From Lineus longissimus (lineage: Eukaryota; Nemertea; Pilidiophora; Heteronemertea; Lineidae): 64,000 nt of DNA. Positions 6,372-52,862 of this stretch are shown here, in pieces. How positions within the stretch are numbered: position 1 is the first letter of the stretch; each line of letters begins with the position of its first letter. The notes beneath the pieces are model-generated. The model was not told the origin of the DNA. It made no database searches and worked only from the letters and a program-made list of their open reading frames with translations. The translations under genes and the position numbers were made by a program. The stretch covers positions 11,286,001 through 11,350,000 of the forward strand of contig NC_088314.1 of assembly GCF_910592395.1 (NCBI RefSeq). The letters run 5' to 3'.

Positions 6372-6708
6372 TTCTTCATCAATAGTTCTTCTTATAAAGG
6401 CAACATTTTCAGTGAGTGCCCTTTGCCCTCCTATTTCAGTGCCTTCACTCCTGTGCCCAAATTAGGCAAAACAAGCAGGAAAAAAACATTTCAGCTTTGC
6501 ACCTTATAACGTTTAACTGTGCTCCCAATTCCCATGACAAATGAGCCCAAATTGACAATTTCGAAAATATCTCTATGCCCAAATTAAACTAGCAAGATAC
6601 AAAATACAGCAATGTCTGTGCAACCAAGATGCCCGACTCCCAACTATATACTGCTACAAATATAGTTAACTTAACATGTTCTCTTCCATTACAGTGACAA
6701 CTTCAACC
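6372..6708 (+). promoter_or_regulatory. Spacer with likely splice acceptor before Rep start
   Basis: Non-coding spacer between the two Helitron ORFs. It ends with a pyrimidine-rich CTCTTCCATTACAG (acceptor near 6693), 15 bases before the ATG at 6709, suggesting a leader intron. Confidence 0.4.
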
Positions 6709-7840
6709 ATGCCAAAGCGAGCAAGACCTCAATCGTTTGGACGCTCTACCCCCACCACAACTAGAAAACAGCAACAACGTTCTCGACAGGCTGCATCACC
6801 TCTACCGTCTCCAATATCATCAAGAACCAGGTCACAATCTCTCCTGCCTGCCAGAAGATTTCCCGAACCAGTGGAACCCGTGCTAAACATTGCTGTGCCG
6901 AACTCCGAAACTCCAGGACCAAGTCAAATCCGACATCACGTGTCTGCTGCAACGAACACTTATAAAGCTGCCATTATTCATACGCCCGCTTTTGATGAAT
7001 TACAAGTGCCGAAAACTTTAAGTACTCATTCTTGCGGTTTGATCCAAGCAAACATTTGTGAATTTTGTGCAGCATATCTCTGGAAATCAGAACGTCAATC
7101 TATGTGCTGCCAACATGGCAAAGTCAACCTTACCCCCCCCCCGCCGCCTCCGCCACAACTGGTTCAAACATACTACCTCGAGAATGAACAATTTCTATCT
7201 AACATCAGAACATACAATAATGCATTAACTCTTGCATCTACTGGTTGCACTGAAGTAAGGGCCCCTGGTTTCAGCCCAACTGTGAAAATTCAAGGCAAAA
7301 TGTACCATCGCATTGGCTCCCTACTACCGCAGCCCTCTACTCCACCTAAGTACGCCCAAATTTTTTTCTACGACTCTGATAATGAATTACAAACTCGCAT
7401 GCAGCAGACTAATGTTTTAAACCAAACCACCATTCAAATTGCCTTCATGACATCAACTCCTACATTACATCATTCAAAGCCGCAATAGAAATCACTCGCA
7501 ACGCCAACATTCAGATCCTACTACATGCAGACGAAAACCACAAACCAAGCACTGAACACTGTCGTCGCTACAACTTGCCACTGACATCAGAAGTCTCAGC
7601 ACTCATCCCAGGAGAAATCGGTGAAAACCTAGACATCATCCTCCACTGTCGAAACGGCCCATGTAAAGCGAATTAACACACTTCACAGGTCATATGATCC
7701 CCTTCACTATGTCTTACTCTTTCCCTACGGTACTGATGGTTGGCAGCTGTCTCTAAAAAAAAACAGACAATAGGACCTTAACTGCCTTAGACCACTACAG
7801 CTTCAACCTCCAAATTCGTCACAACAACTTCAACATCATC
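6709..7840 (+). pseudogene. Helitron replicase N-terminal region, frame-broken
   Basis: From the ATG at 6709 (basic MPKRARPQSF start) the frame is open to 7488. It contains the usual Helitron N-terminal region: CEFCAAYLWKSE followed by MCCQHGKV (zinc-type CxxC and CC), then FLSNIRTYNNALTLAS and YHRIGSLLPQ, which precede the Rep domain in this family. Family similarity then moves by one base near 7440 to another frame, where CRRYNLPLTSEVSALIPGE can be read, and moves again near 7670 to a frame with YDPLHYVLLFPYGTDGW. A stop follows near 7770. At least two or three frameshifts therefore separate this part from the Rep ORF at 7841. A proline run (CCCCCCCCCGCCG, about 7133) is a likely slippage site. 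The element looks non-functional. Confidence 0.8.
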
Positions 7841-10800: not shown

Positions 10801-10867
10801 CATTGCCACAGGAACACATGCCGGCAAAAGACTATTCATCCCATTCATATCGAATACGAATCACTAA
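7841..10867 (+). pseudogene. Helitron Rep-helicase, C-terminally truncated
   Basis: Open frame of 1008 codons. The Rep endonuclease half has PDYFITFTTNPKWPE (residues 88-102), the HUH signature THAH (158-161) and the two-tyrosine motif KYLYKYITK (Y305, Y309, K312). These residues cut and join DNA in rolling-circle transposition. The SF1B (Pif1-like) helicase half has Walker A SGGTGKT (664-670), Walker B IIDEVSM (741-747) and LTCNMR (815-820). In the motif that normally reads GDxRQxLPV, the glycine is arginine (ARDWRQILPVV). The last about 20 bases of the ORF belong to an adjoining dispersed repeat, so the protein stops before the usual NKSQGQT-type motif. The first codon is not a true start: the family protein continues upstream in broken frames. 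Confidence 0.85.
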
Positions 10868-14829: not shown

Positions 14830-16918
14830 GAGTTTTTTTAAGAATTCGTAATTTTCTGGGCCAATAACACCCTCTAAAGGAAAATATTTAACTAATTCAT
14901 ATTTTTCCCTGAAAATTTTTTATTTCAGCTAAATTTTAGACCATAATTGAACTCTATTTTTCCTCGAGTAAGCGAGATAAGGGCCGATGTTTAGCCAGGA
15001 GGGGATTGGTTTGATAGAGAATTCTGGCAGTTTGGTTAGGGAATATTTGAAAGAGTTTAGAGTTGGTTTCGCACGTATAGAAAGGTCGAGAGCATTCCAG
15101 TCGCGGATTGTAGAAGGGAAGAAGCTTGAGTAGAGACTATTAGTGCGGCAAAAGAAAGGTGTTATACTGTTGTTTGCAGCTAAACGTGTGTTATGGTAGT
15201 GACTATCGACGGTTAGTTCTGGGATGAGGTCTTTGAGGTAGGTTGGTGCAAGTCCGTTTAAAATTTTGTAGAACATCACGTGGCGGTGGAACTTCCTGCG
15301 CTTTTCGAGTGGTAGAAGGCCAGATTCTCTGTAAAGGTCGCGGTGGTGAGAGCTGATTGTTTATCATGTTATACATCGCATTGCATTGATTTGAGTTTTT
15401 TTCCAGTTTTGCTGCTAAGTTCTGGGGGAGTCCGTCCCATACAACGTCTGCGTATTCGAGCTTGCTTCTGACAAATGTCTTGTAGAGCGTTAGTAAAGTT
15501 TGTATATCCGTTTTGTATTTGATGTTTTGTAGTATGCCAAGTCTGCGGTTTGCGGTCGTAACTATTGACTGGATATGGTCGTCCCAGGTTCCTTTGTCGT
15601 TGAAAGTTAATCCGAGGTGCTTGTGTGACTTGGCTTGATCAGTTGCGACGTTGTTGAGATGACAGTGGATAACAGAGGGTTGTCTCCGCCTGCTCGTAAT
15701 CAGATACAGCGTTTTTGTTGCGTTGTAGTTGATTGCCCATGCGTAAAGATTGTTTATATCCTGCTGGATTTCGGGCGTGCATGCTATGAGGTTTCGTGAT
15801 GCGAATGCGTTTGAAGTGTCGTCGGCAAACAGTCTCGTTCTGCTGTTTGTTTCCTCCGTGACATCGTTTATGTAGATCAGGAACATCAGTGGGCCTAGAA
15901 TAGATCTTTGGGGGACGCCAGCGTTGACTCGAAGCCATTCTGAGGATTTCCCGTTGATTACTACCTGTTGTTGCCTGTCTTGGAGGTAGCTCTTGAACCA
16001 TGATAGCAGGTTTCCTCTGATGCCAAACTGGTAAAGTTTCGATGCGATGCCTTTATGAGAAGTCTTGTCAAAAGCTTTGGAAATGTCACAGGATAGTGAG
16101 AAAACTTCCTTCTGTTCATCGAGGTCCATTAGTATTTGATGGTTTATTTCGAGGAGTTGGGTAACTTCAGAGTGGTTAGCCAGGAATCCAGATTGGTTCT
16201 TCGAGATCAGCAAACAGACATGGTTGTAGACATTTCTGTGGACAATTTTTTCGAAAAGTTTTCCTATGACACTGAGGAGGGAAATGGGTCTGTAGTTTAT
16301 CGTTTTAGATTTATCGTGCCTGTCACCTTTCTTGAATATGGGGGTAATGTTTGCTTTTTTCCATGTTTCTGGGAATATGTTTTCATTCAGAGATCTGTTG
16401 AAAAGGATGTGGAGCGGTTTCATCAATTGGAGCTTCAATGAATGAACTATGCGAGGGCTGATGCCGTCTGGGCCGATGGCCTTGTTAGTGTCCATGATGG
16501 CGATTTGATATCCTGTTCTGTGATTTTGATGTCGTTGAGCTTGTTGTTGGTGAGGTTTGGGAGTTCTTCTTGGGCGGGTATGTTGGTCTCATCTACGTTG
16601 CAGATTTTGGCAAAGTGAGCGTTGAGGATGTTGGCCTTGGTTGTAGGGTCGTCTACGGACAAGCCATTGACATTTAGTGAAGGAGTTGTGTTGTCTTTGC
16701 TTGAACTGCAGATGCTTTTGGCGAGTTTCCACCAGTCTTTATCCTATCTTCCATTCTTCAATTTGTCCGTTATCGAAGAAAGGTGGGAATCCTTTGCCTT
16801 CTTGATCAGTGAGATAACGTGGTTGCGTCGTTTTTTGAAGATATCATAATCGATGTTAGAACCGGATTTCTTTGCTTTTCCAAAGAGCTTGTTTCTTTCG
16901 TTAATTTTTATTTTCATC
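14830..16918 (-). mobile_element. Non-LTR retrotransposon (LINE), 5'-truncated
   Basis: Minus-strand insertion whose 3' end lies near 14830 and whose coding region runs up to about 16915, where family A repeat sequence begins. Only the reverse-transcriptase half and the C-terminal region remain; there is no endonuclease. 5' truncation is the normal outcome of target-primed reverse transcription. The RT sequence style fits the Jockey/CR1-like group. Confidence 0.85.
14929..16915 (-). pseudogene. LINE reverse transcriptase, frameshifted
   Basis: Read in three minus-strand frames. At 16496-16915: pre-RT region, with a TAG near 16745. At 15203-16495: the RT core, with AIGPDGISP, NYRPISLLSVIGKLFEKI, the motif A aspartate in SCDISKAFD, GVPQRSILGP (family consensus has G where R stands), and the catalytic FADD box in RLFADDTS, then KHLGLTF...W and LEYADVVWDGLP. 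At 14929 to about 15350: the C-terminal segment with MFYKILNGLAPTYL and SFFPSTIRDWNAL. Frame changes lie near 16495 and 15350. The copy cannot make an intact polyprotein. Confidence 0.88.
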
Positions 16919-28865: not shown

Positions 28866-31281
28866 TCTCCTCGAAATTGACGGAAACCGATTTCAAGCAC
28901 GTTGCCCTGGTGACCATATTGAGAATCAGAACGAGCCTGTTTTCGAAAGGAACCTCGCTCTAGTCACCCCCAACGTACATACCAATGAAATGGCCAGGGC
29001 CATTGTGCTCACCTCATGTGGAGGAAAGATGGATAAAGAGCATGGTATTGTGTCATGTAGTGTTAGGTTTGATGTAGGTCCAAGCAATTACAATTTCCCC
29101 AAAACGGCCAATTTACAGTACATTCGACCTCTGTGACCTTGAAAAGTAGGTCAAATCAAAGAAGACCCGGGTGACACATTGAATGGTTGTTAGAATTAGA
29201 TGTACCTATGATATAAAATTGGTGCCAATCGGGCAAGTCATTACTAGGAATAATGGCATTTTGAAGAATTTAGGATTTGGCCCCCTCCCTGGAGGCCAAA
29301 CGGCAAATCAGATCGCACCAAACTTCAGTACCTGAGATCACCTGACCAAGGGGTACATGTGTACTTAATTTGTGATCAATAGTCATTGCAGTTAAGAAAC
29401 GTGCCATAGTTACGGCCTGACGGCCAATTTACGCCATTTGACCTCTGTGACCTTGACAAGAAGGTCAAATTAAAAACCTGTGTGACATATACTGTATGGT
29501 GGTTAGATGTACCCATGATATCAAATTGGTGGCAATCGGGCAAGAAGTTAAGGAATAATCACATTTTTAAGGTTTTTGGATTTTGCCCCCTGGTGGTCAA
29601 GTGGTGAATCATATTGGACCAAACTTCGGTCCCTGAGATCACCTGACTAAGGGGTAAATGTGTACCAAATTTGGTATCAATAGTCATTGCAGTTTAGAAA
29701 CGTGCCATCGTTACATCCTAACGGCCAATTTACACCATTTGACCTCTGTGACCTTGAAAAGGAGGTCAAATCAAAAACCCGGAGGATATATGATGCACCT
29801 TTGCTAGAAGTACCTACCATATTTTTTTCAAAATTTCCCGACTACTATTGAGGGAGATATTGCATATTTTCACTTTTAACGTTTGGCCCCCTGGTGGCCA
29901 AACCATGAAACGAATCGGACCGAAACTTGGTCTCCAAGGTGTCATTACATAAGGGTACATGTGTACCAAGTTTCAACTCAATAGCTCTAACAGTTACGAA
30001 ACGTGCCCTGCTAACGGACGACGGACGACGACGACGACGACGACGACGACGGACGACGGACGCCACGGTATGGGATAAGCTCACCTCTGCTAAGAGGTGA
30101 GCTAAAAATGAATTTGATCGGACAAAGGGTTCGCCTCGAAATTGACGGAAACCGATTTCAAGCAAGCCGCCCTAGTGGCCATATTGATAATCGGAACGCG
30201 CCCGTTTTCGAAAGGAGCCTCGCTCTAGTCACCCTCAACGTACATACCAATGAAATGGCCAGGGCCATTGTGCTCACCTCATGTGGAGGAAAGATGGATT
30301 AAGAGCATGGTATTGTGTCATGTAGTGTTAGGTTTGATGTAGGTCCAAGCAATTACAATTTCCCCAAAATGGCCAATTTACAGTACATTCGACCTCTGTG
30401 ACCTTGAAAAGTAGGTCAAATCAAAAAAGATCCGGGTGACACATTGAATGGTTGTTAGAATTAGATGTACTTATGATATAAAATTGGTGCCAATCCGGCA
30501 AGTAATTACTAGGAATAATGGCATTTTGAAGAATTTAGGATTTGACCCCCTCCCTGGAGGCCAAACGGCAAATCAGATCGCGCCAAACTTCAGTACCTGA
30601 GATAACCTGACCAAGGGGTACATGTGTACTTAATTTGTGATCAATAGTCATTGCAGTTAAGAAACGTGCCATAGTTACGGCCTGACGGCCAATTTACGCC
30701 ATTTGACCTCTGTGACCTTGACAAAAATCAAAAACCTGTGTGACGTATACTGTATGGTGGTTAGATGTACCCATGATATCAAATTGGTGGCAATCTGGCA
30801 AGAAGTTAAGGAATAATCACATTTTTAAGGTTTTTGGATTTTGCCCCCTGGTGGTCAAGTGGTGAATCATATTGGACCAAACTTCGGTCCCTGAGATCAC
30901 CTGACTAAGGGGTAAATGTGTACGAAATTTGGAATCAATAGTCATTGCAGTTAAGAAACGTGCCATAGTTACGGCCTAACGGCCAATTTACACCATTTGA
31001 CCTCTGTGACCTTGAAAAGGAGGTCAAATCAAAAACCCGGAGGATATATGATGCACCTTTGCTAGAAGTACCTAAAATATTTTTTTCAAAATTTCCCGAC
31101 TACTATTAAGGGAGATATTGCATATTTTCACTTTTAACTTTTGGCCCCCTGGTGGCCAAACCATGAAACGAATCGGACCGAAACTTGGTCTCCAAGGTGT
31201 CATTACATAAGGGTACATGTGTACCAAGTTTCAACTCAATAGCTCTAACAGTTACGAAACGTGCCCTGCTAACGGACGACG

Positions 31282-31413: not shown

Positions 31414-31535
31414 TTCTCCTCGAAATTGACGGAAACCGATTTCAAGCATGCCGCCCTGTGAGCATATTGACAATCAGAACGAGCCGGTTTTCAAAAGGAA
31501 CCTTCCTCTAGTCATCCCCAACGCACATACCAAAA

Positions 31536-32345
31536 AAATCATCATTTTAGCTAGCATAATTCCTGAGATATAGCCGAAAGTAGTTTTTCGCATGAAGCGC
31601 CCCCTGGGGCCAAGTGTAGGTTGAAAACCGTCGAAACTGCCAAAACGCACAATGGTACCATAAAGACCTTCAAACCACCCAGAGATGAAATGCCTAGCAT
31701 TTATGGTTATGATATATGCTCCGGAAACCACTGATGGTCAATTTACGCTACTTGACCCTTGTGACCTTGAAAAGTAGGTCAAATCAAAAACCCGGGTATT
31801 ATGTGATGTAGTCTCATGAGTACTGTCCTCAGTAAAAAATATCATGATTCAAGCTAGCATAATTCATGAGATATAGCCAAAAGTAGTTTTTGCGCATAAA
31901 GCGCCCCCTTGGGCCGAGTGTAGGTCGAAAACCGTCAAAACTGCCAAAAGGCACAATGGTACCATAACACTTCAAACCACCAAAGATGAAATGCCCAGCA
32001 TTTATGGTTACGGATATATGCTCCGGAAACCACTGATGGTCAATTTACGCTACTTGATCCCTGTGACCTTGAAAAGTAGGTCAAATCAAAAACCCGGGTA
32101 TTATGTGATGTAGTCTCATGTTTACTGTCCTCAGTAAAAATATCATGATTCTAGCTAGCATAATTCATGAGATATAGCCAAAAGTAGTTTTTTGCATGAA
32201 GCGCCCCCTGGGGCCAAGTGTAGGTCGAAAACCGTCAAAACTGCCAAAAGGCACAATGGTACCATAAGACCTTCAAACCACCCAGAGATGAAATGGCCAG
32301 CATTTATGTTTACGGATATATGCTCCGGAAACGAGATCAACGGAC
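31536..32345. repeat. Three tandem units of about 300 bp
   Basis: Units begin near 31536, 31836 and 32137 with CTAGCATAATTCMTGAGATA, continue through GCGCCCCCTKGGGCC, ATATGCTCCGGAAACCA and an AGGTCA block. The third ends in a GACAGACGGACCGACAGACG tract and GGGCTGAGGGGTAA. Confidence 0.85.
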
Positions 32346-35296: not shown

Positions 35297-35305
35297 GGAA
35301 GCTGT

Positions 35306-35672
35306 TATTGACACGACCGTCGTGTCCGCAGTGATGCAGGGTAAGTCTTGTAGCCACGACGGTCGTGCCCCGAATGGTTATTGTTAGCACTGCGGACCCG
35401 ACCGTCGTGTCCGCAATGCAGGCTCCCTTCATTGCGGAAACGACGACGTCGTGCCAACAAGAACGAAATTTGGTGTTGCGTACCCGACCGTGCGTGAATA
35501 TAAAACATGGACTGGAACAACCTGAATACGGCTTACCGACCGTCGTGCAAGCAGCGATGAAACTTAGTATTGCGGACCCGACCGTACCGTGGCACGGCCG
35601 TCGTGGCTGCAAGTCTTACCCTGCATCACTGCGGACACGACGCCTCACGTCGACGGTCGTGTTCAATAACCT
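35306..35672. repeat. Palindromic subterminal region of the left MULE end
   Basis: Bases about 35303-35362 and 35595-35672 are inverted copies (GTTATTGA..CACGACCGTC, GTCCGCAGTGATGCAGGGTA, GCCACGACGGYCGTG). Between them, variants of CACGACCGTCGTG / CCCGACCGT occur seven or eight times. The clustered palindromes look like repeated protein-binding sites. Confidence 0.75.
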
Positions 35673-35867
35673 CATTCAAATAGGTCATTGAAAACTTCGC
35701 TCCAGATCGATAAAGAAACGAATGAAATTGAGCCATTACCGCAACCGCGCCGTGCCAAGTGTTCCGCTTTTTAAATTGCAATGACCTCTGCGTTGGAGAT
35801 TGCCATTACCGATCCAATCCTTTCCTACCCTAGCGGAGAAATCAGGAACCAATCGATACTTCCATCC

Positions 35868-35919
35868 AACCTCGTCTCCAGGGGCCCCCTTTAAAAGACA
35901 CCTGGGGACAAGGTTGGTT
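35868..35919. repeat. Short hairpin repeat
   Basis: CCAACCTCGTCTCCAGGGGC is followed 12 bases later by its near reverse complement ending CCTGGGGACAAGGTTGG. This is a compact foldback; translations giving NLVPRCLLKGAPGDEVG come from it. Confidence 0.65.
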
Positions 35920-36855
35920 GCTTTCCCAAAGCTGTCTACAATGGTTACTATGGTGTTATTGTCCATTGACCCCAATTTATACTAGGTGGGCAGGGAAGGG
36001 ATGACACTCCTCTATACATGTAGGCTTGTCGAGTAGTGTAGCAGGATGGGGCATCAGGGGAAACCGGCCAAGTCAAGTGGCTTCACCATCTTTCATGAAT
36101 TTCTCTATCTAGTCTCATTCTGAAGTGTAGCAGCAGGAGGGGGCAACCTGCCAATTCCTATTGGTACAGACTGACCGCACAGTGTAGCAATGTGAATAAA
36201 AGCAAACAAGCAACGAAACAAATAGGATTTCAATAATTCCTTATGGTTATTATTACTTATTCCTTATAAAAAAGTAGTTTTTATAGAGAGCATTCAATAC
36301 CGGTATTGTATTCTATGATTGAAATATTCATCAACACAAATGAAAATGCAAATATTACAATATTACTGTTCTCAATTAGTTATGTTCAGAGAAATATGGA
36401 GGCAGTAAGCTGATATACTAGTACATGTACACATGTTTCAACAAAAATTAAAACAGCTCACATAAGCAGACAGTATTGCTAAAACATGATATGAAGACTG
36501 TTGGCCTACTGTAACTGCACCTCTAAGCCATCACATTGTCAAGTTCTACTAATGAAGGGTCGGGTCTACAATGTAAATGTTTGACTCATTAAAGGTTTTT
36601 CTAAACACAGGATGGAGCAGTTACAGCCAACGAAAATGATAAAGCTGACATCAGCAGTATTGTTAAAAAAATATGAAGCCTACACTGGGCTTAAGTCCTG
36701 CACATGTACTATAGCTGCTTATCTAGGCCATCCCATTGCCAAGTTCTGCAAATGACGGTTCTTCAATGGATGGCTATGAGGAGCAGTTACAGTATATGAC
36801 AGATAAAACCAAACAAGAATGATAAAACTAACATCAGCAGTTTTGTCAAAAGAAA
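35920..36855. other. MULE 3' non-coding region
   Basis: AT-rich and no ORF supported. Two imperfect copies of ACATCAGCAGTATTG / CCATCCCATTGCCAAGTTCTGC-type phrases precede the minisatellite. Confidence 0.4.
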
Positions 36856-37400
36856 TATGAAGCCTACACTTTGACTTTGACTGGTGGAGCAATATTATGT
36901 GGCAGAAGCCCAAAACAAGTTAAAACAAACATCAGCAGTATAGAGTTAAAAGATATGAAGCCTACACTAGGCTTTGACTGGTGGAGCTCCCGCACTAGGC
37001 TTTGACTGGTGGAGCAATATTATGTGGCCGAAGCCCAAAACAAGTTAAAACTAACATCAGCAGTATAGAGTTAAAAGATATGAAGCCTACACTAGGCTTT
37101 GACTGGTGGAGCCCCCGCACTAGGCTTTGACGCAATATTATGTGGCAGAAGCCCAAAACAAGTTAAAACTAACATCAGCAGTATAGAGTTAAAAGATATG
37201 AAGCCTACACTAGGCTTTGACTGGTGGAGCCCCGCACTAGGCTTTGACTGGTGGAGCAATATTATGTGGCAGAAGCCCAAAACAAGTTAAAACTAACATC
37301 AGCAGTATAGAGTTAAAAGAAATATGAAGCCTACACTAGGCTTTGACTGGTGGAGCCCCCGCACTAGGCTTTGACGCAATATTATGTGGCAGAAGCCCAA
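36856..37400. repeat. Minisatellite, about 120-bp unit, four to five copies
   Basis: The unit contains GAAGCCTACACTAGGCTTTG, CTGGTGGAGCAATATTATGT, GGCAGAAGCCCAAAACAAG and TAAAACTAACATCAGCAGTA. Copies start near 36856, 36955, 37080, 37198 and 37324. Some carry an extra internal CGCACTAGGCTTTGACTGGT half-unit. It lies just downstream of the last MULE exon. Confidence 0.85.
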
Positions 37401-37444
37401 ACCTAACATCAGCAGTAGTTAGAGTAGAGTTCTAGTACACCATA

Positions 37445-37714
37445 CTAGTACACCATACAAATAAGGCACTTGTAAACGGCTGGAGTTTCAGTTAACGCAA
37501 CACATTCATTGTGGAACCACCGATTGCAGTAGTCACATTGCAACCATGCAATATCCTCTCCTGATGGCTTGTTGCAGAATGGCATATCGCAGATGATTTC
37601 ATCATTCGTTTTGGCATGACTTAGTAGTTTTCCTAGGGCGTATCTTCGGTAACCATCACAATGCCACTGCCTCATCACAAACGGAGGAACACCTTTCAAC
37701 AGCGACACTGCATT
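37445..37714 (-). CDS. MULE gene last exon: Ulp1 tail and PHD finger
   Basis: Minus-strand exon from an acceptor (TTTAATTTCAAG, exon begins 37714) to a stop at 37445: 89 codons, phase 0, in frame with the protease exon ending at 40441. The start, NAVSLLKGVPPFVMRQWHCD, continues the last Ulp1 helices directly after the catalytic cysteine exon. Then a PHD-type C4HC3 zinc finger can be read: ICDMPFC, LQCDYCNRWFHNEC and YKCLIC, including the W before F-H that typifies PHD fingers. PHD fingers read histone H3 tails, so this could direct the element or its protease to chromatin (inference). It is separated from the previous exon by a 2.7-kb intron. Confidence 0.85.
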   Translation of the reverse strand, partial: NAVSLLKGVPPFVMRQWHCDGYRRYALGKLLSHAKTNDEIICDMPFCNKPSGEDIAWLQCDYCNRWFHNECVALTETPAVYKCLICMVY

Positions 37715-38811
37715 CTTGAAATTAAACAAAAACAATTATAAGAAACACGTGTATAAAGCCATGGAACTTTACACTTGTCCCCAGTTGCAGTGTTCTCAAA
37801 CTACTATATTTGCTGTTGGGTATATACAACTCATACATGTCATACCCCAGGTCTTTTCCACCACTACAAATTTTACAAAAACTGACCTACATCATGTACG
37901 TGAGGCATTCCATATGAAATCAACAAGTGGTTCCCAGTTCATAGTCTTAGAATTGGCTAATTTTTACATATTTTGTAGGGTATAGGGCCAATATGAAAAG
38001 TCCAAAATATTTTTGTCATATTCCTGACGGTTAGCCCCCCAGGAGGGTCCAAAAAAGGGGGCGTGGCACCTTTTGGGGGGCGGCCGCCTATTTCCTAGCC
38101 ATCTTTGAATGGCTATATCTCAGAAAGTATTAGAGATACCCTTTTGATTCTTTCAGGGTGTTTTCTTCTTGGCCAAAGGACTGCTTTAAACCCATTAATT
38201 ATATACTGAGACCTTTAGGATGAAAATTTATGGGGTTTCAATATTAGGTGATTTTTGACCAAAATTGCGTTATTGGGGGGCTCTACCACCCACACTATAA
38301 CAGGGTGGAGACAAATGAATGGTTGTTTTGGAAGTATCCTGTAATGACATTGTCTTGGTGTAAAAGAAACATCCTGAAAGATTCAGAAGTTTCTGAAAAG
38401 TGGTCCTGAAGTTGGTCCCACCCCCAAAATGCTACATTTTGAGGGTCCAAAATGGCCAGGTAGGAATGGGTTAATGATGAAAAAAATAATTTTCCTCAAG
38501 AGACCTTGGTACCCTCTACTTCTGAGTAAAAAATCTTTTTCAAACCAGCACTCCTTCTAGTGGAAATAAATAGTTTCCCTAGTCAAGACTGGTATGCCAC
38601 TCGTCCCTATATAACATGTACATTAATGTACATAAATGTACATAAAAACAATTTTTCCATATAATACTTTATTTATAACAGTAGGAACAACAGCTACAGT
38701 ATTTGAATAGCCCTGGAAACACTGGATTGTCCTTAGCATTCTTCTAAGAACCATAGAACAATAAGTCCCATCTAATATACTACAGTTTCGTTTACATGTA
38801 GATCACAAAAG

Positions 38812-39060
38812 TCAGTGCATGAACCGCTGATAGCCTGCTTTTATTCTTGTTTCATCAGCTGAGGAAATGAAATAACTGCGTCCTAGACCACAAGTTGTTG
38901 GGGCATCGATTCTGGCCAGGATGTGCTCTAACGGTACCCAGCAAACATCTTTTGGAGTTGGCCATATGATAATTGAAGCTTGACTTTGAGGATGCATGAA
39001 TGACACTTGTATATTACAATGTTCCTCAGAGCAGTCGGAGATGTTCCCAATCCACCATGT
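38812..39060 (-). pseudogene. Second, partial copy of the Tudor-like C-terminus
   Basis: The minus strand of the left arm reads the same ending as 39385-39644 (MHPQSQAS, IIWPTPKDVCWVPLEHI, PTTCGLGRSYF, stop) with one or two substitutions. The coding region upstream of the arm is absent on this strand, so the copy is partial. Confidence 0.75.
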
Positions 39061-39644
39061 TCCAGTGTATCACATCCTCCCATATTTTGACGCCTTCTGA
39101 TTTGTATGAATGGGCCAGGGCAAATATCACTGGAATTCGAATCCTGTTTATATCTAGTGCTGAAGTAGAAAGCACTGCTGTTGAGCAAAACAAAAGATTT
39201 GACAATTCTCCCAAGATTCCTGGCACTAGAGATAACCACTGCTTTACTCCCACTGCTAGCGGAACCCTTCTTGTCATGCGCGTTTCTGGTGATGACAGCT
39301 ATTTTGAAAGTGGGCCATCAGAAGTTGTGAGTATCACCCCTTTGAAGACGACTGACTGCAAGCCTGGTTTGTACATTGGGTGCATTTACAATGGGGCATG
39401 GTGGATTGGGAACATCTCCGACTGCTCTGAGGAACATAGTGATATAGAAGTGTCATTCATGCATCCTCAAAGTCAAGCTTCAAATATCATATGGCCAACT
39501 CCAAAAGATGTTTGCTGGGTACCGTTAGAGCACATCCTGGCCATAATCGATGCCCCAACAACTTGTGGTCTAGGACGCAGTTATTTCATTTCCTCAGCTG
39601 ATGAAACAAGAATAAAAGCAGGCTATCAGCGGTTCATGCACTGA
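39000..39644 (+). CDS. Tudor/SH3-like C-terminal protein of transposon type
   Basis: Open frame of 214 codons. Protein-like sequence starts near 39090 (TPSDLYEWARANITGI), so the true start or exon border lies between 39000 and 39090. The second half reads KPGLYIGCIYNGAWWIGNI, then FMHPQSQAS, IWPTPKDVCWVPLEHIL and APTTCGLGRSYF, ending QRFMH and a stop. The pattern GxYxxCxYxxxWWIGxI...DxxVxFMxP...WPxxxDxCWVP recurs, from memory, at the C-termini of many uncharacterised transposon-related proteins of cnidarians and other marine animals. The fold is likely a small beta-barrel (inference). It lies in the loop and right arm of the inverted duplication, on the strand opposite the MULE gene. Upstream exons were not found. 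Confidence 0.5.
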   Translation: MTLVYYNVPQSSRRCSQSTMFQCITSSHILTPSDLYEWARANITGIRILFISSAEVESTAVEQNKRFDNSPKIPGTRDNHCFTPTASGTLLVMRVSGDDSYFESGPSEVVSITPLKTTDCKPGLYIGCIYNGAWWIGNISDCSEEHSDIEVSFMHPQSQASNIIWPTPKDVCWVPLEHILAIIDAPTTCGLGRSYFISSADETRIKAGYQRFMH

Positions 39645-40440
39645 CTTTTGTGATCTACATGTAAACGAAACTGTAGTATATTAGATGGGACTTATTGTTC
39701 TATGGTTCTTAGAAGAATGCTAAGGACAATCCAGTGTTTCCAGGGCTATTCAAATACTGTAGCTGTTGTTCCTACTGTTATAAATAAAGTATTAGAAACT
39801 TCTGAATCTTTCAGGATGTTTCTTTTACACCAAGACAATGTCATTACAGGATACTTCCAAAACAACCATTCATTTGTCTCCACCCTGTTATAGTGTGGTT
39901 GGTAGAGCCCCCCAAAAACTCAATTTTGGTCAAAAACCACCTAATGTTGAAACCCCATAAATTTTCATCCTAAAGGTCTCAGTATATAATTAATGGGTTT
40001 AAAGCAGTCCTTGGGCCAAGAAGAAAACACCCTGAAAGAATCAAAAGGGTATCTCTAATACTTTCTGAGATATAGCCATTCAAAGATGGCTAGGAAATAG
40101 GCGGCCGCCCCCCAAAAGGTGCCACGCCCCCTTTTTTGGACCCTCCTGGGGGGCTAACCGTCAGGAATATGACAAAAATATTTTGGACTTTTCATATTGG
40201 CCCTATACCCTACAAAATATGTAAAAATTAGCCAATTCTGAGACTATGACCTGGGAAGATTTTCTTAAATAGGTTGATTTCATATGGAATGCCTCACATG
40301 TTAGATGTAACTCATACATGTACACATGACAAACCAGGAGTGAAGATTTTGTTGTTATGTTTTGTTGAATGGTCTGAAAGTTATCTAAGAGTTTTCGATC
40401 TAAACTTAAGTACTATTAGCTTGTCCTCGGAATCACTTAC

Positions 40441-40543
40441 CATCATGACAAACACCCCACAACTTGTGTTATCATCCTGCTTGCTACACATGTACTTTGC
40501 CACAGTCCATTCAGTGTCGTCACCGCGTGCAATCATGAATAAC
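40441..40543 (-). CDS. MULE gene exon: Ulp1 catalytic cysteine
   Basis: 103-base minus-strand exon, acceptor TTTCCACTTGCAG (begins 40543), donor GTAAGT (ends 40441). It enters in phase 2 from the upstream exon and leaves in phase 0. It encodes LFMIARGDDTEWTVAK, then KQDDNTSCGVFVMM. Q-x(4-5)-S-C-G is the signature of C48 (Ulp1/SENP) peptidases: the glutamine shapes the oxyanion hole and the cysteine is the nucleophile. All are present, so the protease looks chemically intact. Confidence 0.88.
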
Positions 40544-40700
40544 CTGCAAGTGGAAACAGTGAACTTAATGGATCTGACTTTCAATGCATTCTGGATATGA
40601 ACTTTTGGTGCAATATTGTAAGTTAGTTTTCATGCATACCAAATGAAAATGCAAATCGCAGCAAGTTCATCACACAAAAGTAGACCCAAAAGGTACTCAC

Positions 40701-40855
40701 CTCCAAGATGTTAAGTACAACTCGAATCTTCTGTCAGGCAAATCCAGTGAATCCAACTCACCAACGGAATGATTTACCATATCAGCAACTAGGAGAACCC
40801 AGTGTTCATTAGTGCAAATGGGCAAAATAACCCATTTGAACTTACTCAGTGGAAT
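40701..40855 (-). CDS. MULE gene exon: Ulp1 catalytic histidine and aspartate
   Basis: 155-base minus-strand exon, acceptor TCTGATTCCAC read on the minus strand as TTTTCAG-type (begins 40855), donor GTGAGT (ends 40701), phases 0 to 2. It encodes WVILPICTNEHWVLLVADM, where EHW carries the C48 catalytic histidine, and GELDSLDLPD, where D-S-L matches the catalytic aspartate motif. Its spacing to the cysteine exon is normal for Ulp1 proteases. Confidence 0.87.
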
Positions 40856-41170
40856 CTGAAAATACACAAAGAATGGCAATGACTGAATGAGAATAAAAAA
40901 CTCAAAATGCCACATAATTTTGGGGGTGTCTGATACATGTTGGGGGTGTCTGATACATAGGGCTGTCTGATACATGTATTTGCTGTAAAATTATTGCAAA
41001 TCATGTTTGAATCATGTGAAGCAGAAAGCATCCCTGGAATATTTTCATCCTTTCATCAAACATTTAGTCACAATTCTGCCAAAGTACGTATGTTTGTATT
41101 GTATTGTCATGCCAGTAAAATAACAGTATTTAGATACAGCAGAATGAACAAAACTACACTACATCTGTAC

Positions 41171-41299
41171 CTGCTTATATAACCAAGAAGATGTGTCATT
41201 CTTCTCCCACATCACGGCCAGGAAGCTTGGAAGAACATGAACTGTTGGTTTCTCCGTATTCACTTCCTTCGACAAGATATCAAGGTATGCATGGATGAC
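41171..41299 (-). CDS. MULE gene exon: Ulp1 N-terminal helices
   Basis: 129-base minus-strand exon (43 codons, phase 0 at both ends), acceptor CAATTTTAAG, donor GTACAG. It encodes VIHAYLDILSKEV, then VHVLPSFLAVMWEK and SSWLYKQ. It joins LNDQ at the end of the previous exon, giving the W/LNDxVI(x)xYL motif that opens Ulp1/SENP catalytic domains. Confidence 0.85.
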
Positions 41300-41529
41300 C
41301 TTAAAATTGAAGAACAAACAGTTGATGTTAAACAATTCATGAACAAATTACGGAAGGGGTAGCCATTATTAGTAATCAAGTCTCGTCCTGCTTCACCAAA
41401 TCATTCTTCACTTTTCAGGACCGTATGTAATTTACAACATGTAGTCACGCATACACCAATACAGTTTTGTTCCATGTGATCAATGAAAATCATATATTTC
41501 TTAGTCCAACAAGTACATCAAATACATAC

Positions 41530-42573
41530 CTGATCATTTAAACACGCCTCTGGTTTCAGTGTGTTTAGGTCATCTCTCTTCAAACTGTTGTTGCCGACAT
41601 AAAGGTTGATGTCTTTTCCCTTATCTGCATCAGCTACCCTTGTGTAGTTGGCATAGTTATTCATGTGGTTTGGGGCTGCTTTCAACGTTTCCAATATCAC
41701 CAATGGGTCAATTTCATATTCAAACGATCTGGTGAGAACACCAGAAACCAACATCAGCACATCTACATCAGTCTTTTCTTTTTTGAACTGCCAGGCAACG
41801 TAGGGGATTGTTTCAATTATTTCTTCCTTGTCGGTAGTATTCAGGAGGGAGTAGGCACCAGTAACCTGGCTCGACAAGAGACTCTTAATACTACGAAATG
41901 CAGACCTTATCCCAAGTTTGAGGCACTCGTCATACAAACTGCGTACAACTCCAGTATCAAGCAGCTCACACTTTTCTAAGAACTTCTGTCTCTTTTCAAT
42001 CTTGTCTTTTTCTGCAGCCATTTCAGCACCTGTCTTACTCTTCACCGTTTTAGCCTTCTTCTGCCTACACCCAGATTTGGTCTCTTTTCTCTTTTTTGGC
42101 CCCACAGGTTTCTTCTCAGATTTCTTTGTCTTCGGCGTTCCAGATTGCTTACTCCCCTTTGGACGGCCTCGTACCTTCAGTTTCACAGGCAGGTGAATGT
42201 CTGGTCTATTTTGTAGTATTTCAGAAAATGAAGATGGGGCAGCTGTCTTAGCTTCACAACTCAGGAGAACGTTTAACTTCTGCAAGTCAGACTGAGACAG
42301 GGTGTTGTTGTTGCTATCAACGTTAAACCTGTTCAAATCAGGCAAGGTGTTGTTGTTGCTATCAACCGTATCCATGGGGGAGTCAACAGGCACGTCAGGA
42401 CAGTATTCTTTCAGATCAGAATCAGCAATTTGTTCACCGTTGGTTGAGGAGTCGTTTTTGCTATCAATAACCATGGGGGAGTCACCAGGCAGGTCAGGAC
42501 ACTTTTCTCTTTCCACTACTTCTACCTCAATGTTCACCAAGTCTGATGATTCTTTCACTTCAACTGCATTCAT
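41530..42573 (-). CDS. MULE gene: AT-hook/basic linker and start of Ulp1 domain
   Basis: 3' part of the large exon 2, in a frame shifted by one base relative to the transposase part. It begins with a repeat-derived acidic stretch (ESSDLVNIEVEVV, CPDLPGDSPM twice-like), then a strongly basic region with an AT-hook-type core VRGRPKGSKQ and lysine-rich runs (nuclear and minor-groove binding, inferred). A helical region of about 130 residues follows, and the exon ends KPEACLNDQ at a consensus donor (GTATGT, last base 41530). The final motif starts the SUMO-protease domain. If the frame break at about 42575 is real, this part would not be made with the transposase. Confidence 0.75.
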
Positions 42574-44513
42574 GGCATTCTCAATGTCCAGGCAGGTCAG
42601 GACACTTTTCTCTTTCCACTACTTCTACCTCAATGTTCACCAAGTCTGATGATTCTTGCACTTCAACTGCATTCTCAACGTTCACTGAGTCTGATGATTC
42701 TTGCACTTCAACTGCATTCTCAACGTTCACTGAGTCTGATGATTCTTGCACTTCAACTGCATTCTCAACGTTCACAGAGTCTGATGATTCTTGCACTTCA
42801 ACTGCATTCTCAATGTTCACAGAGTCTGATGATTCTTGCACGACTTCAACAACCTGAAGCGAACTACCGCGGACTATAAGCTCCCGTAGACGTTCAAATT
42901 GAGCCAAATACTGATCAGAGACTTTCTGGCCATGTTGCGCCATAGCGCTAGCAATGTCTTTGCAAATAACATTTGCGCGACTATACTTCTGGTTCCAATT
43001 CAGGATTCGTGTTTCCTTCGTCTTCTTTAGAACAGCAACAGTGCTGATTGTGGGTCGGAGCGTGGCACTTTCAAATATAAACATCTGAGAACGTAGCTTC
43101 CATCGTTCACCAGTGAGGGTATCACAATACAGTAGAACAGGAGAGGAACATGCTTGCTGTTGTCGCACAAAGAAAATGTGCTTACATGGCAAGAGCATGG
43201 TTGATGAAAAGGTGCAGGAACAGGAGTTCATATCTGAATTCACCTTGTGGAATGCTTCACTGCTCGTTACATGGCGGATGTCAAATCCATCTTCTACTCG
43301 TTCACAAGCATACTGTCCATTCATTAGTTTCATTTTGGAAATAGAGTCAATAATGTGCTTGGCAGCATATGGCGTACAGCTGGCATAGATGGCCCTAGTG
43401 GTTTCATTCATTTCGGTGGTACAATATGACACTGAAGACACTGAAATAGATTTCTTGTGCATCATCTCCACTTCCTTCAAGTTACTGAACTTGATCAAAT
43501 GTTCCACGCAGGATGCCATAGAGTCCGATGATTTCATGACCATCTTCAGCTTTTGGTGGAATGACTCTAGCCTGTTCGTCGTGCGATTCCCAAGTGTCAC
43601 TGCCTCTTTTCGCCAGGCTGCAACCCACATCTGCCTGCAATTGTGCCAGTTCTTGGCATAATATTGCAAAAACTTAGCGAAGGCAATCTTTTCAATCAAC
43701 ACCAACAAATCACTTTTCTTCTTGCTGCCAGTTTTAGCGAACGACTTGGTCTCACTGTTCATGGTTTTGAAAACATGGAACAGGCAAAGATGTATTGGAG
43801 ATTTTGGATAGTATTTTTTCACTACACCGATTTCGGTAAAGTCCTTGTCCACAACTACAACACAGTTCTTCTGCAATGTTTCCTCACCCAGGGATTCCTT
43901 CCATGCAGCAAACCCGGAATCTAAATTGGCAGTACATTCATTCCCCACGAAGAAATGCGCAACAGGTATGCTGCAGCCATACCCATCCTCCACCATCAGG
44001 GTAAAAAGAGGCATCTTGGTGGAATTGACCCTGTACGTAGCATCGACCAGTAGAACCTCAGGGAACTTTCTAACAGCCTCTTTCATAAATGGCAGCTGAA
44101 GAAATAGACAGGTTATCTGTCCATCGTCATCAACTGTCAACTGGACGGATGACCCAGGCTTTTCTATCAGCACCTTGTCTAGCACCTCCATCAGCCGGCA
44201 CAAATCTGAAGCTCCCTTCGTTGCTTCTTTCTTCAGGCGTGTCTTTAGATTGTTGATATCAGACGGCTTCAACATCTTCCCCGAAACCTTGGTCATCATG
44301 TCCTTGTACATCTTCGGCGGAACGGACAAGTTCAACATAAGCCGTCCCAATTCCTCCTCTTTTTTTTCCAGTCGACGTACTTCTGGATATGACACAAACG
44401 TATCCTGCTCCAACGGGTGGTTATGATTGAGTGTGGCTTGGCTGATTACGAGGCAGTCATTTTTCCGATCTGCAGTCAGTAGGAATTGACAAGGGCACTG
44501 TTTTCTGTATGTC
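42574..44513 (-). CDS. MULE transposase with SWIM zinc finger
   Basis: 5' part of exon 2, opening at an acceptor (ACTCATTTCAG, first base 44513). The first codons read QCPCQFLLTADRKNDCLVIS and LNHNHP, the end of a FAR1/ZSWIM-type N-terminal module. Numbering from the TTG at 44413: MULE DDE core with D124 in LLVDATYRV, D189 in VVVDKDFTE followed by HLCLFHVFK, and E283 in NRLESFHQK; these would bind the catalytic metals. The SWIM finger is CSC at 398-400 and CKH at 410-412. It ends in five 15-residue acidic repeats (NVENAVEVQESSDSV). Sequence style is closest to ZSWIM3-like proteins. The frame closes at a TGA just after the repeats. Confidence 0.87.
42590..42860 (-). repeat. 45-bp coding minisatellite with out-of-frame duplication
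   Basis: Four to five 45-bp units inside the transposase exon encode NVENAVEVQESSDSV. A longer block (DLVNIEVEVVEREKCPDLPG) is then duplicated across 42573-42640 with a one-base frame change. Confidence 0.85.
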
Positions 44514-45345
44514 CTGAAATGAGTCAGAAGGGAAAACCTTTTGAATCAACTAGTCGGTTACCAACAAGCTTTTTCATACCAAAATTGTCATCCGTCAACA
44601 ATCGAAATCTCGCACAGGGCAGGCAATTTTGGCCTACCTACAGAACAGGATCTAGGTTATGATGACACAGTCACGTTCAATCTGGGGTTGTAAATTTTAG
44701 CCCACCAATACTACCCTAAGGCCTTCGCACTTTTAGCCGCACACCAGTGCCACATTACGGAATGGGATGACTGCAGATGGTAGGCTAGGCTACTGGCTAC
44801 ACATTAACTCCATCGTGTGGCATGATGACCATGCAAGTGCCAGCGGCCGTTTTGACCATTAGGGCCTACTATAGTAGTGCACGTGCGCAGTACGTGCTGT
44901 GTGCACTGTAGTGTAGGCCATATAATGCATGTTGTGTGGATGTAGGCCTAAGCCACACCTAGGCTACATTCATCAATAATAGGCCTAGGCCTACATATGC
45001 ACACCACATGCACTTACTTCTGACCATCAATGGTGGTGCATGTGCAGTGAGTGCTGTGACTGTGTGCACTGTAGTCATATGCACACAACATGCACTTCTG
45101 ACCATCACTGGTGGTGCATGTCACGTGTAGTGCTGTGACTGTGTGCACTGTAGTGTAGCCTGTATGTATAGTAGCCTAGTGCATTTTGTGTGCACATGGT
45201 ACATGTAGGCCTATTGAATGTACAGGCATATTTATACATGGCACGGCAGGCCTAGCCTATACTAGTAGGAGGCCTAGGCCTAAGCCACAACCGGCCCTAG
45301 CATGCCTAGATGGCGAGCATGAATGCACAAACTAAACATACAAAC
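44514..45345 (-). other. MULE intron 1 with tandem duplication
   Basis: Likely intron between exon 1 (donor GTTTGT) and exon 2. It holds a tandem duplication of about 77 bp (44997-45075 and 45077-45155; GACTGTGTGCACTGTAG, GTGGTGCATGT) and several AGGCCTAGGCCTA motifs. The two exons do not join in phase (1 base versus a required 2), so a small extra exon or another donor must exist, or the gene is broken here. Confidence 0.55.
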
Positions 45346-45613
45346 CTCTGCCTAGAACGATCCCCAGTGCTCTTCGTTGTGTGAGCGCGCCATGCTTGCA
45401 CTTGAACCGTACACGGCTATACTTGAATGAATCTTTGTAGTAGTTTTTTACGTCTACTACCCCATTATTTGCTTTCTCAACTGTCCTCGAGTCTGCTATA
45501 ACAAATTTTGCAAATGTTTCCCGCTCGAATTTATTCAGATATTCTTTAAAAGACGCGAAATGGCTGAATTTTTGGCCGAGAGACAGCGGCTCCATAACGT
45601 CGTCTCCCGCCAT
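45346..45613 (-). CDS. MULE gene first exon, ZSWIM/FAR1-like N-terminus
   Basis: Starts at the ATG at 45613 in a good context (AACATGGCGG) and reads 89 codons plus one base. Sequence SLGQKFSHFASFKEYLNKFE and KYSRVRFKCKHG is the usual opening of ZSWIM3/FAR1-like MULE proteins: F-x-S-F-x-E-(x)n-Y/F and a C-K-H-G element that pairs with the CPC residues of exon 2 to form a zinc-type fold. The frame is open upstream to 45679, but the second ATG has the better context. Confidence 0.75.
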
Positions 45614-45631
45614 GTTGTTTCTTCTACTGAT

Positions 45632-45703
45632 CACGTGGGGTCGGGTAAGGCTAAACAGTGACCGCTTGTTGGGAGACACGCGCTTGGCAAACCGGTGACG
45701 TCA
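45632..45703 (-). promoter_or_regulatory. Probable MULE promoter in right terminus
   Basis: Between the start codon and the right terminal repeat lie an E-box (CACGTG, 45632-45637), a perfect CRE (TGACGTCA, 45696-45703) and two GTCGGGTAA motifs. No TATA box is obvious. The assignment rests on position and motifs only. Confidence 0.4.
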
Positions 45704-45769
45704 CGGTCGGGTAATGCTCTTACAGATTATGGCGCTGCAGACACGACGGTCGTGTCAATAGTCACTTCG

Positions 45770-46284: not shown

Positions 46285-47658
46285 CCCTCACCGAAAAGCA
46301 GTGTGATATCAGTCAGGATTCAGTCAGGTTGCAGTGTTACCTCACATTTTTATGGCAGTGTTGAAATCAGTGGAAAGCAGTCATAGGGAGTGTTTTTCAG
46401 TCACGCGTTACCAAAGCATACAGTATACAGCAATCAAAAATAGAAGTTAGGGAGTCATAAGCAGTGGTAAGACAGTCAAAATCAGTGGTAAGGCAGTCAA
46501 AAGCAGTGCTCATTTAAATATTTAGGCTGACTGATTTCCACTGCTTTTGACACTGAAAATGAATCCCCACTATGCATCATGCACAGGGCTGGCAGTGGGG
46601 TTCAGTGTTAATTTAAATATTTCGCAGCACACTGAATCCACACTGAAACACCACTGATTTTGACTGCCATTTCCCAAACCTCCTGGAGGGAGCAGTCATT
46701 TTCAGTGTTAATATGAATAATTTATTCAATGGCATGCAGGCACAGATGCCGAGAGAGGTTTGGGGGACGTGACCCCCCTGTGCTGATGACAACCAAAGAA
46801 ATTTTTCGAAAAAGCAAAAACTTCAAGCCAACTGTTACTTTTGCTGTCCTATTTTAGACGGTGCGTCCAATATGGCAGTGATGACGTCATCTGCACAAAT
46901 AGAGAACATCGCCATTGCATGATGACGCGACACAGTAAAAAGATGACAAATTCTCCCATGCAGATATCTTGCAGTGTATGCATACATCACAATTAACACC
47001 TATAGGGCCTACAGTTGATGCATGAAGATACATGCAGATATCTTGCAGTGTATGCATACATTACAACACCTATAGGGCCTACAGCCTTCTTGATTTGCTG
47101 AAAATACAACTTCACTGTCTGTCTAGATTACCCTTTTTGCATTCATTTGGCTCCTTATGTGTTCCAATTCAAACTGACTAAAACTCCCCTCTGCTCATAT
47201 TGAAATTCGGGTAAATATCAAGAAATATGAAGAGCTACCATGATTTCTTGAATGTTTGACTATCAAATTCAAACTTACTAGCTTCCTGTCTCAGGTTGCA
47301 TTATGGGTGATATTTAACACTGAATTTGACTGCAATTACCACTGCTTTACACTGCCATCAAGTCTTAATCTCACCAGTCATAAAGCAGTGGTTTTCAGTC
47401 ATGTTGAAAATGCCACGGGTTTCGATCAGAGTTGGAGAAGTGGAAATCAGTGGTCTTTCAGTCATAGGCAGTGTTTTTGAAATACGTCGTTCATAATGAT
47501 ATGCAAGTGGCAGTGCTTTGCAGTGGTCTTTCAGTCAAAATCAGTGGTTTTAAAACATTAAGAAAAAATGATATGCCTAAGACAGTCATATGCAGTGGGG
47601 GTTTCTGTCAAAAGCAGTGTGATGCAGTCATTTTCAGTGCACTGCCTTTCGGTGAGGG
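46285..47658. mobile_element. Nonautonomous TIR element, TA-flanked, with CAGTCA/CAGTGG arrays
   Basis: The left end CCCTCACCGAAAAGCAGTG and the reversed right end CCCTCACCGAAAGGCAGTG differ at one base over 19, and TA flanks both. About 430 bp inside each end is packed with the words CAGTCA, CAGTGG and CAGTGTT in mixed orientation. The centre (46730-47160) is unrelated and contains a tandem CAGATATCTTGCAGTGTATG duplication. No transposase ORF. Superfamily is unclear. Confidence 0.75.
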
Positions 47659-48068
47659 TATGCTTTTAAACCTGGTGGACGCTGTTTAGTATGACCCATG
47701 CTTAATACATGTGTCAAACACGGCACGTCACGATGACACTACTGAGTACTTGCAACAGAGCATCTGGAGCTTGTCCAACATCATTTTTCATGACATTTCA
47801 TTAATGGCGCGAAACCCCTGTGCAAATTGTGTGTACTAAAATTTCCTATGCTGGAACATCGGGCCGTTTTCAGGAGCAGTTGTGGCCGGAATGAACTTCT
47901 GAATGAATTAAAACGCAGCGACGTGCTGTAACGATCAATTTGAGGTAGGTTTGGTGAAAATCCGAGAGCAGTTAAAAAAATGAGAGCGATTTTCAAGATT
48001 TCTTAACATCTTGGACCGAACTATAGCAGTATAGCACATGAGCAGAGGGAGATACTGGGTGAATACTC
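47659..48068. other. No gene seen
   Basis: Non-coding sequence; overlapping short ORFs lack domains. Confidence 0.4.
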
Positions 48069-51814: not shown

Positions 51815-52862
51815 CGTCGTCGTCCGTCGTCCGTTAGCAGGGCACGTTTCGTAACTGTTAAAGCTATTGAGTTGAAACTTGGTACACATGTACCCTTATG
51901 TAATGACACCTTGGAGACCAAGTTTCGGTCCGATTCGTTTCATGGTTTGGCCAGCAGGGGGCCAAACGTTAAAAGTGAAAATATGCAATATCTCCCTTAA
52001 TAGTAGTCGGGAAATTTTGAAAAAAATATGGTAGGTACTTCTAGCAAAGGTGCATCATATATCCTCCGGGTTTTTGATTTGACCTCCTTTTCAAGGTCAC
52101 AGAGGTCAAATGGTGTAAATTGGCCGTTAGGATGTAACGATGGCACGTTTCTAAACTGCAATGACTATTGATACCAAATTTGGTACACATTTACCCCTTA
52201 GTCAGGTGATCTCAGGGACCGAAGTTTGGTCCAATATGATTCACCACTTGACCACCAGGGGGCAAGATCCAAAAACCTTAAAAATGTGATTATTCCTTAA
52301 CTTCTTGCCCGATTGCCACCAATTTGATATCATGGGTACATCTAACCACCATACAGTATATGTCACACAGGTTTTTAATTTGACCTTCTTGTCAAGGTCA
52401 CAGAGGTCAAATGGCGTAAATTCGCCGTCAGGCCGTAACTATGGCACGTTTCTTAACTGCAATGACTATTTATCACAAATTAAGTACACATGTACCCCTT
52501 GGTCAGGTGATCTCAGGTACCGAAGTTTGGTGCAATCTGATTTGCCGTTTGGCCTCCAGGGAGGGGGCCAAATCCTAAATTCTTCAAAATGCCATTATTC
52601 CTAGTAATGACTTGCCCGATTGGCACCAATTTTATATCATAGGTACATCTAATTCTAACAACCATTCAATGTGTCACCCGGGTCTTCTTTGATTTGACCT
52701 ACTTTTCAAGGTCACAGAGGTCGAATGTACTGTAAATTGGCCATTTTGGGGAAATTGTAATTGCTTGGACCTACATCAAACCTAACACTACATGACACAA
52801 TACCATGCTCTTTATCCATCTTTCCTCCACATGAGGTGAGCACAATGGCCCTGGCCATTTCA
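51690..52862 (+). repeat. Complete family A compound unit (inverted relative to 28-31 kb)
   Basis: Runs from the hairpin TTAGCTCACCTCTTAGCAGA, through a (GTC)n tract (51737-51835) and three modules with AGGTCA blocks at 52077, 52380 and 52692, to GTGAGCACAATGGCCCTGGC. It is the reverse complement of about 28988-30109 with few changes, so it gives the unit's natural length, about 1.17 kb. Confidence 0.85.

Follow-up and report, generated by a model that had tools for sequence, protein, structure and literature searches.

Can a single animal transposase carry, in addition to the catalytic core that moves the element, both a protease domain of the type that removes SUMO and a finger of the type that reads histone marks? 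The question is raised by a 64,000-nucleotide stretch of the genome of the nemertean Lineus longissimus (GCF_910592395.1, NC_088314.1, positions 11,286,001 to 11,350,000), referred to below as the window, in which an earlier note made from the sequence alone described a complete Mutator-like element (MULE) whose gene joins a DDE transposase to an Ulp1 protease and a PHD finger. The element is real and the limits proposed for it are exact: a Mutator-like DNA transposon of 10,473 bp, with its gene on the minus strand, occupies precisely positions 35297-45769 of the window, where it is delimited by inverted ends and by a perfect 9-bp target-site duplication (TSD), TTTCATCAA, on either side. The terminal inverted repeat (TIR) measures 37 nt (84%), its inner core being perfect, and the two ends have TATTGACACGACCGTCGTGTC in common. 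The element has the DDE domain of the MULE superfamily, its TSD lies within the 8-11 bp (mostly 9) usual there, and it possesses TIRs, which are not universal in that superfamily. The subterminal repeats of CGACCGTCGTG type are possible binding sites of the transposase.

The gene consists of six exons and five introns, all of them GT-AG, and the end of exon 2 together with exons 3-6 makes a single reading frame when spliced (Table 1). The order of the exons and domains bears out the proposal of an animal MULE with one gene for the DDE, SWIM-like, AT-hook, Ulp1 and PHD parts, and the ZSWIM/FAR1-like start that had been suspected was found on exon 1 as a ZSWIM3_N match (5e-10). Single exons also gave Pfam matches to the ZSWIM1-3 RNaseH-like domain (2.5e-30) and to the MULE domain PF10551 (1.4e-14, 54.7 bits against a cut-off of 27.6). 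Of the profile matches that the earlier note had expected, those to MULE and PHD were obtained on single exons and that to Ulp1 after splicing, while SWIM stayed below its cut-off; the four SWIM ligands are nevertheless invariant in the 4-row alignment A2.

The Ulp1 exon on its own fell just short as a Peptidase_C48 match (5.8e-4, 20.2 bits against a cut-off of 20.7), and the spliced tail yielded Peptidase_C48 at 3.5e-12 and PHD at 9.6e-6. The Ulp1 match begins in the last part of exon 2 and finishes early in exon 6, so that the protease is indeed encoded in phase, over five exons and not over three as had been thought. A genome-wide profile search with PF02902 returned 31 matches, which at E <= 0.001 did not include the window Ulp1, its division among several exons being the probable cause; a genome search with the spliced tail as query did recover it. 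Solved relatives of the tail are an Ulp1-like SUMO protease (6dg4, 9.2e-9), SENP5 (3.5e-8) and yeast Ulp1 (2.5e-7). The catalytic H, D, Q and C, correctly recognised earlier, are all present in the window copy and are invariant in the five rows of alignment A1 (the window copy, Nymphon P0013, Argopecten P0014 and P0015, and P0006). The PHD finger finds its closest solved structure in KDM5B (2ma5, 3.8e-8), followed by ALFIN-LIKE 3 and KDM5A; its eight C4HC3 ligands are invariant in the 4-row alignment A3 and both of its Trp residues align with those of KDM5A/5B. These two Trp positions are part of the KDM5-type H3K4me3 pocket, and at the level of sequence the finger belongs to the H3K4me3 type.

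Table 1. Coordinates of the transposon and its parts in the window (a dot in the strand column as given for features without assigned strand)
Feature	Position	Strand	Remarks
Left TSD, TTTCATCAA	35288..35296	.	
Whole transposon	35297..45769	-	TIRs, 9-bp TSD, related copies elsewhere in the L. longissimus genome
TIR, gene 3' end	35297..35326	.	
Subterminal repeat cluster, CGACCGTCGTG type	35310..35660	.	Repeat families D8, D9, I3
Minisatellite between gene stop and 3' TIR	36875..37401	.	125-bp unit, 4.3 copies
Exon 6: Ulp1 end, PHD finger (37457-37591), stop TAG	37445..37714	-	Pfam PHD 4.5e-6; PDB 2ma5 3.8e-8
Nested palindromic repeat, last intron	37902..40296	.	Absent at the matching site in the 3 other tail-bearing copies
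Exon 5: Ulp1 (Q and C of Q..SCG)	40441..40543	-	
Exon 4: Ulp1 (H of EHW, D of LDS)	40701..40855	-	
Exon 3: Ulp1	41171..41299	-	
Exon 2: N-terminal domain end, DDE, SWIM-like motif, 15-aa repeats, AT-hook/basic linker, Ulp1 start	41530..44513	-	
103-bp tandem duplication	42485..42674	-	Breaks the frame of the window copy
SWIM-type CxC...CxH motif	43175..43231	-	Pfam SWIM 0.19, under cut-off
Site of the 57 bp (19 codons) of DDE region missing from the window copy	43675..43676	-	Present in the other four large copies
MULE (PF10551) DDE core	43766..44056	-	Pfam
Exon 1: start ATG, ZSWIM3_N / FAR1-like N-terminal domain	45342..45613	-	Pfam 5e-10; donor GTATGT
TIR, gene 5' end	45740..45769	.	
Right TSD, TTTCATCAA	45770..45778	.	

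Complete, as it had been called, the element is not. The window holds a defective copy, in which the ends and the parts are present and the frame is broken: the 103-bp duplication shifts it between the DDE part and the Ulp1-PHD part, and 57 bp of the DDE region are gone. The search of the host genome for further copies, proposed at the outset, produced at least five large copies, the window element included, and seven mini-elements. The copy at C1:11.23 Mb has a truncated exon 1 and an open exon 2 with a 981-codon frame, and that at C1:12.24 Mb has an interrupted exon 2 and a truncated exon 1; their 5' flank is common to both, so one of them is probably a segmental duplicate. At C1:15.61 Mb exon 1 is interrupted and the Ulp1-PHD part deleted, and at C15:0.44 Mb exon 2 contains two stops. 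With the repeat-bearing part of exon 2 left out, the exons of the copies are 96.7-100% identical, which indicates fairly recent movement of the family. The mini-elements are made of the two element ends and are internally deleted (367-424 bp in the six of them measured), and of the nine loci with both ends in view seven had a perfect 9-bp TSD. In four of the five large copies TRF places a minisatellite of about 125 bp directly 3' of the gene, with differing numbers of units. The 3' end region is also amplified head-to-tail in units of about 1.9 kb in stretch L011 (C1:15603000-15612999), and a further amplification of it, at four places 3.2 kb apart, was noticed at C1:11242619-11252555.

In the window the last Ulp1 exon and the PHD finger are separated by a 2.7-kb intron with a nested repeat, an arrangement in keeping with the idea that the Ulp1 and PHD exons are those of a host gene, or of another element, adjoining the MULE transposase. 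We find this scarcely credible. The nested repeat, a foldback-like palindrome of 2.4 kb with arms 98% complementary, for which a genome search gave long matches at 13 sites on other contigs, is missing at that intron site in three other copies, and exons 3-6 are found in the same order in four of the five large copies. A sister family at C5:17.916-17.921 Mb (stretch L050, C5:17914800-17921800), with a similar copy on C3, aligns collinearly with the window family over 1247 columns at 33.6% identity, beginning with the second half of the N-terminal domain and ending with the PHD finger, and exons 3, 4 and 5 measure 129, 155 and 103 nt in both. The preservation of exon lengths and domain order at this distance argues that the fusion is old and real; because of it, and because four of the five copies carry exons 3-6, it is also unlikely that the transposase and the Ulp1-PHD part are separate, unrelated transcripts. 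The same order recurs within one predicted protein in P0006 and in P0029.

Further relatives were encountered in the same genome. A third family at C2:15.59 Mb (stretch L051, C2:15586500-15593800) has the same tail and a broken exon 2. A k-mer script for terminal repeats found many internal repeats in L050 and nothing in L051, and in neither a clear TIR/TSD pair, the ends of which may fall outside these stretches. Transposases on C10, C6 and C9 are 28-35% identical to that of the window and have no tail match nearby in the tail genome search. More parts of Ulp1-PHD tails, at 29-54% identity, were seen at C15:249396-521113, C15:1937007-1943393 and C17:5440547-5441846.

Related proteins are of varying completeness. 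P0006 is a predicted protein in which DDE and PHD are combined with a C48-like region, and its tail matches the window family at 2.7e-8 (21.8% over 239 columns, PHD included); Pfam C48 does not match it, and its AlphaFold2 model (alignment A4), with a mean pLDDT of 41.5 and values below 50 in the protease region, was not used. P0029 has DDE, C48 (0.0019) and PHD (0.0073), the latter two under the cut-offs. In the sea spider Nymphon striatum, the predictions P0011, P0013 and P0016 hold dispersed pieces of a near relative, whose identity over short segments is 60-75%, and the gapped tail of P0013 is 39.8% identical to the window tail. A protein search with alignment A2 gave 19 proteins; Pfam scans of 12 of them found no further protein with all three domains above the cut-offs, and the other seven show no PF02902 in precomputed annotation. 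As a separate observation, the MULE proteins P0004, P0005 and P0008 bear, N-terminal to the DDE domain, an HW...D stretch and a VCG motif that by eye resemble another cysteine protease; Pfam gave no match for this region.

By its described traits the window family is Rehavkus-like. The elements of that group, according to the excerpts of Dupeyron et al. 2019 (PMC6446971) on which we draw (all literature is cited here from such excerpts), have a 9-bp TSD, a TIR of 26-400 bp, a PHD finger and a minisatellite before the 3' TIR, and are hosted by Arthropoda and Annelida; the length of Rehavkus-1_TC is given as 9.5 kb (PMC10218199). The window element agrees with them in its TSD, in a TIR within that range, in a single gene, in the PHD finger of its transposase, in the position of the minisatellite and in its similar size, and it departs from them in its nemertean host and in the addition of Ulp1, which the same excerpts do not mention for Rehavkus. 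We consider it quite probable, from the comparison of these traits and of the copies, that the window element belongs, as a defective member, to a Rehavkus-like MULE family of Lineus longissimus with few copies and probably recent activity.

Several observations weigh against this reading or restrict it. The family is set beside Rehavkus by description and not by DDE descent. None of the five large copies has an intact gene, which also speaks against the word "complete", and the SWIM match has an E-value of 0.19, under the Pfam cut-off. Among the nine places with both ends, the TSD is imperfect at C11:9.03 Mb and there is none at C1:11.23 Mb; in the latter case the 3' end region is present four times, and the end seen may therefore be the wrong partner. 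The catalytic Asp of Ulp1 is replaced by Asn in the C5 and C2 families, so the full triad is not strictly kept, and in ticks the proteins P0002 and P0017 combine DDE with PHD but gave no match to Pfam C48, which makes the protease look dispensable in related lineages.

The last two observations, the Asp to Asn change in two of the three Lineus families examined and the C48-less tick proteins, are those expected if the Ulp1 domain were vestigial, or if it served purely for binding, as a proteolytically inactive holder of SUMO or a SUMO-like protein. Papain-type proteases can, however, use Asn in their triad, and the whole H, D, Q, C set is retained in all the proteins of alignment A1; we judge loss of the activity to be improbable. 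Where the Asp is replaced, in the C5 and C2 families, the His, Gln and Cys of Ulp1 are retained, as are the cysteines and the histidine of the PHD finger.

In the defective-copy reading, the N-terminal domain of the transposase would bind the TIR and the subterminal CGACCGTCGTG repeats, and the DDE domain would cut and paste the element. Ulp1 may free the transposase itself, or chromatin or repair proteins at the donor or target site, of SUMO or a related modifier, and the PHD finger, with both KDM5-type Trp residues, would tether the complex to open, active H3K4me3 chromatin. That the desumoylation is real and useful to the element seems to us a substantial possibility, if somewhat short of an even chance, and the specific proposal that it counteracts silencing we rate lower. 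The tail may instead serve the choice of target sites, or the repair of DNA after excision by clearing SUMO or ubiquitin at breaks. Docking of a KDM5-like PHD finger at active promoters would indeed put insertions in open chromatin, and a role of Ulp1 and OTU in repair during transposition has been suggested by Bao et al. 2010 (PMC2836005, in the part cited). The Ulp1-bearing VANC/KIU protein of plants has been linked to hypomethylation of related elements (PMC13317346, in excerpt), which favours escape from silencing, although that protein is the product of a separate gene; we treat the target-site or repair role as a tentative alternative that deserves attention.

The tail is not confined to MULEs. 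In the scallop Argopecten, P0014 and P0015 combine a Gypsy-type integrase with an Ulp1-PHD tail (PHD below the cut-off in both) that is 39.9-40.8% identical to that of the window (E 3e-68 and 2e-73), and the tail of the C5 MULE family, at 40.5%, is as close to the window tail as the Argopecten tails are. In a tree of eight tails (five inner branches, one of them starred and three open) the MULE and Ginger1 tails did not separate clearly enough to show which had been the donor. Ginger1 resembles the window element in its C-terminal Ulp1-PHD tail and differs from it in its DDE domain of Gypsy-integrase type and its 4-bp TSD (PMC2836005, as excerpted). The window protein, by contrast, gave a MULE match and no rve match and its element has a 9-bp TSD, while the Ginger1-type P0014 and P0015 gave no ZSWIM, MULE or SWIM match in Pfam. 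To judge by these comparisons, the Ulp1-PHD tail behaves as a cassette that occurs in both MULE and Ginger1-type proteins. Whether it has been traded between these two unrelated transposon superfamilies because it helps against SUMO-based silencing, the transposase acting as a chromatin tool in one polypeptide whose PHD finger docks at H3K4me3 chromatin and whose Ulp1 frees silencing or repair factors of SUMO there, is in our opinion doubtful.

As to novelty, which the earlier note had implied for an animal element, that suggestion fares poorly in comparison with the literature. Bao et al. 2010 (PMC2836005) report, in the portions cited, that Mutator elements encode Ulp1 in hydra, lancelet and plants; Ginger1-9_HM is listed there with Ulp1 and PHD, and the legend of Fig. 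1e refers to an Ulp1 and PHD alignment of Ginger1 and Mutator transposases, so that the full domain set may already be known. The MuDR-type elements of Hydra and Branchiostoma floridae (Bao and Jurka, Repbase Reports 2008/2009, cited in PMC2836005) are likewise animal Mutator-type elements with Ulp1, and their likeness to the window element extends, in that source, to mentions of Ulp1 and PHD only. The main text of the 2019 MULE survey, as excerpted (PMC6446971), does not contain the word Ulp1, and a lancelet MULE reported earlier could not be confirmed there, no transposase being found, so that the question of novelty is not wholly closed. The excerpted main text of a 2026 arthropod survey names neither Ulp1 nor PHD nor SWIM (PMC13359780). 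The whole domain set in one animal MULE was not found stated in the literature searched, where Repbase Reports did not appear, and the search there for Zisupton with Ulp1 gave nothing, nor did any paper on Lineus longissimus come up in another; C48 peptidases are also described from oomycete Cryptons (PMC3212892, in part). The combination in the window is very close to elements reported from other animals, and the case for its novelty is weak.

The locus is of value as a well-defined animal case in which desumoylase-like and histone-reading modules lie within the transposase itself. The plant VANDAL and Kaonashi (KIU) elements are also MULEs with Ulp1, but they are of the non-TIR kind, and among their several genes it is a VANC-like one that contains the domain (PMC13317346, excerpted text). 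The similar tails of MULE and Ginger1-type proteins suggest repeated use of one trick, and they make transposon desumoylation against host silencing a testable question. Gene annotation can overlook such a tail: the L. longissimus protein P0001, 99.85% identical to the C5 locus over 681 aa, ends in its annotated form upstream of both Ulp1 and PHD.

Other repeats were noticed elsewhere in the window. A Helitron lies at 6670-10864, where the open reading frame 7757-10864 matches Helitron_like_N (4.7e-57) and the PIF1 helicase (1.5e-67), and the frame just ahead of it, 6670-7485, has no Pfam match. The minus strand carries at 15206-16588 a reverse transcriptase fragment (RVT_1, 5.7e-23), probably the remnant of a non-LTR retrotransposon. 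Arrays repeating at about 301 bp occur at three places (29103-30007, 31532-32332 and 52069-52727) and perhaps belong to one satellite family in two orientations. Just outside the element, positions 46429-47661 contain many short CAGTG/CACTG direct and inverted repeats, perhaps of another element.

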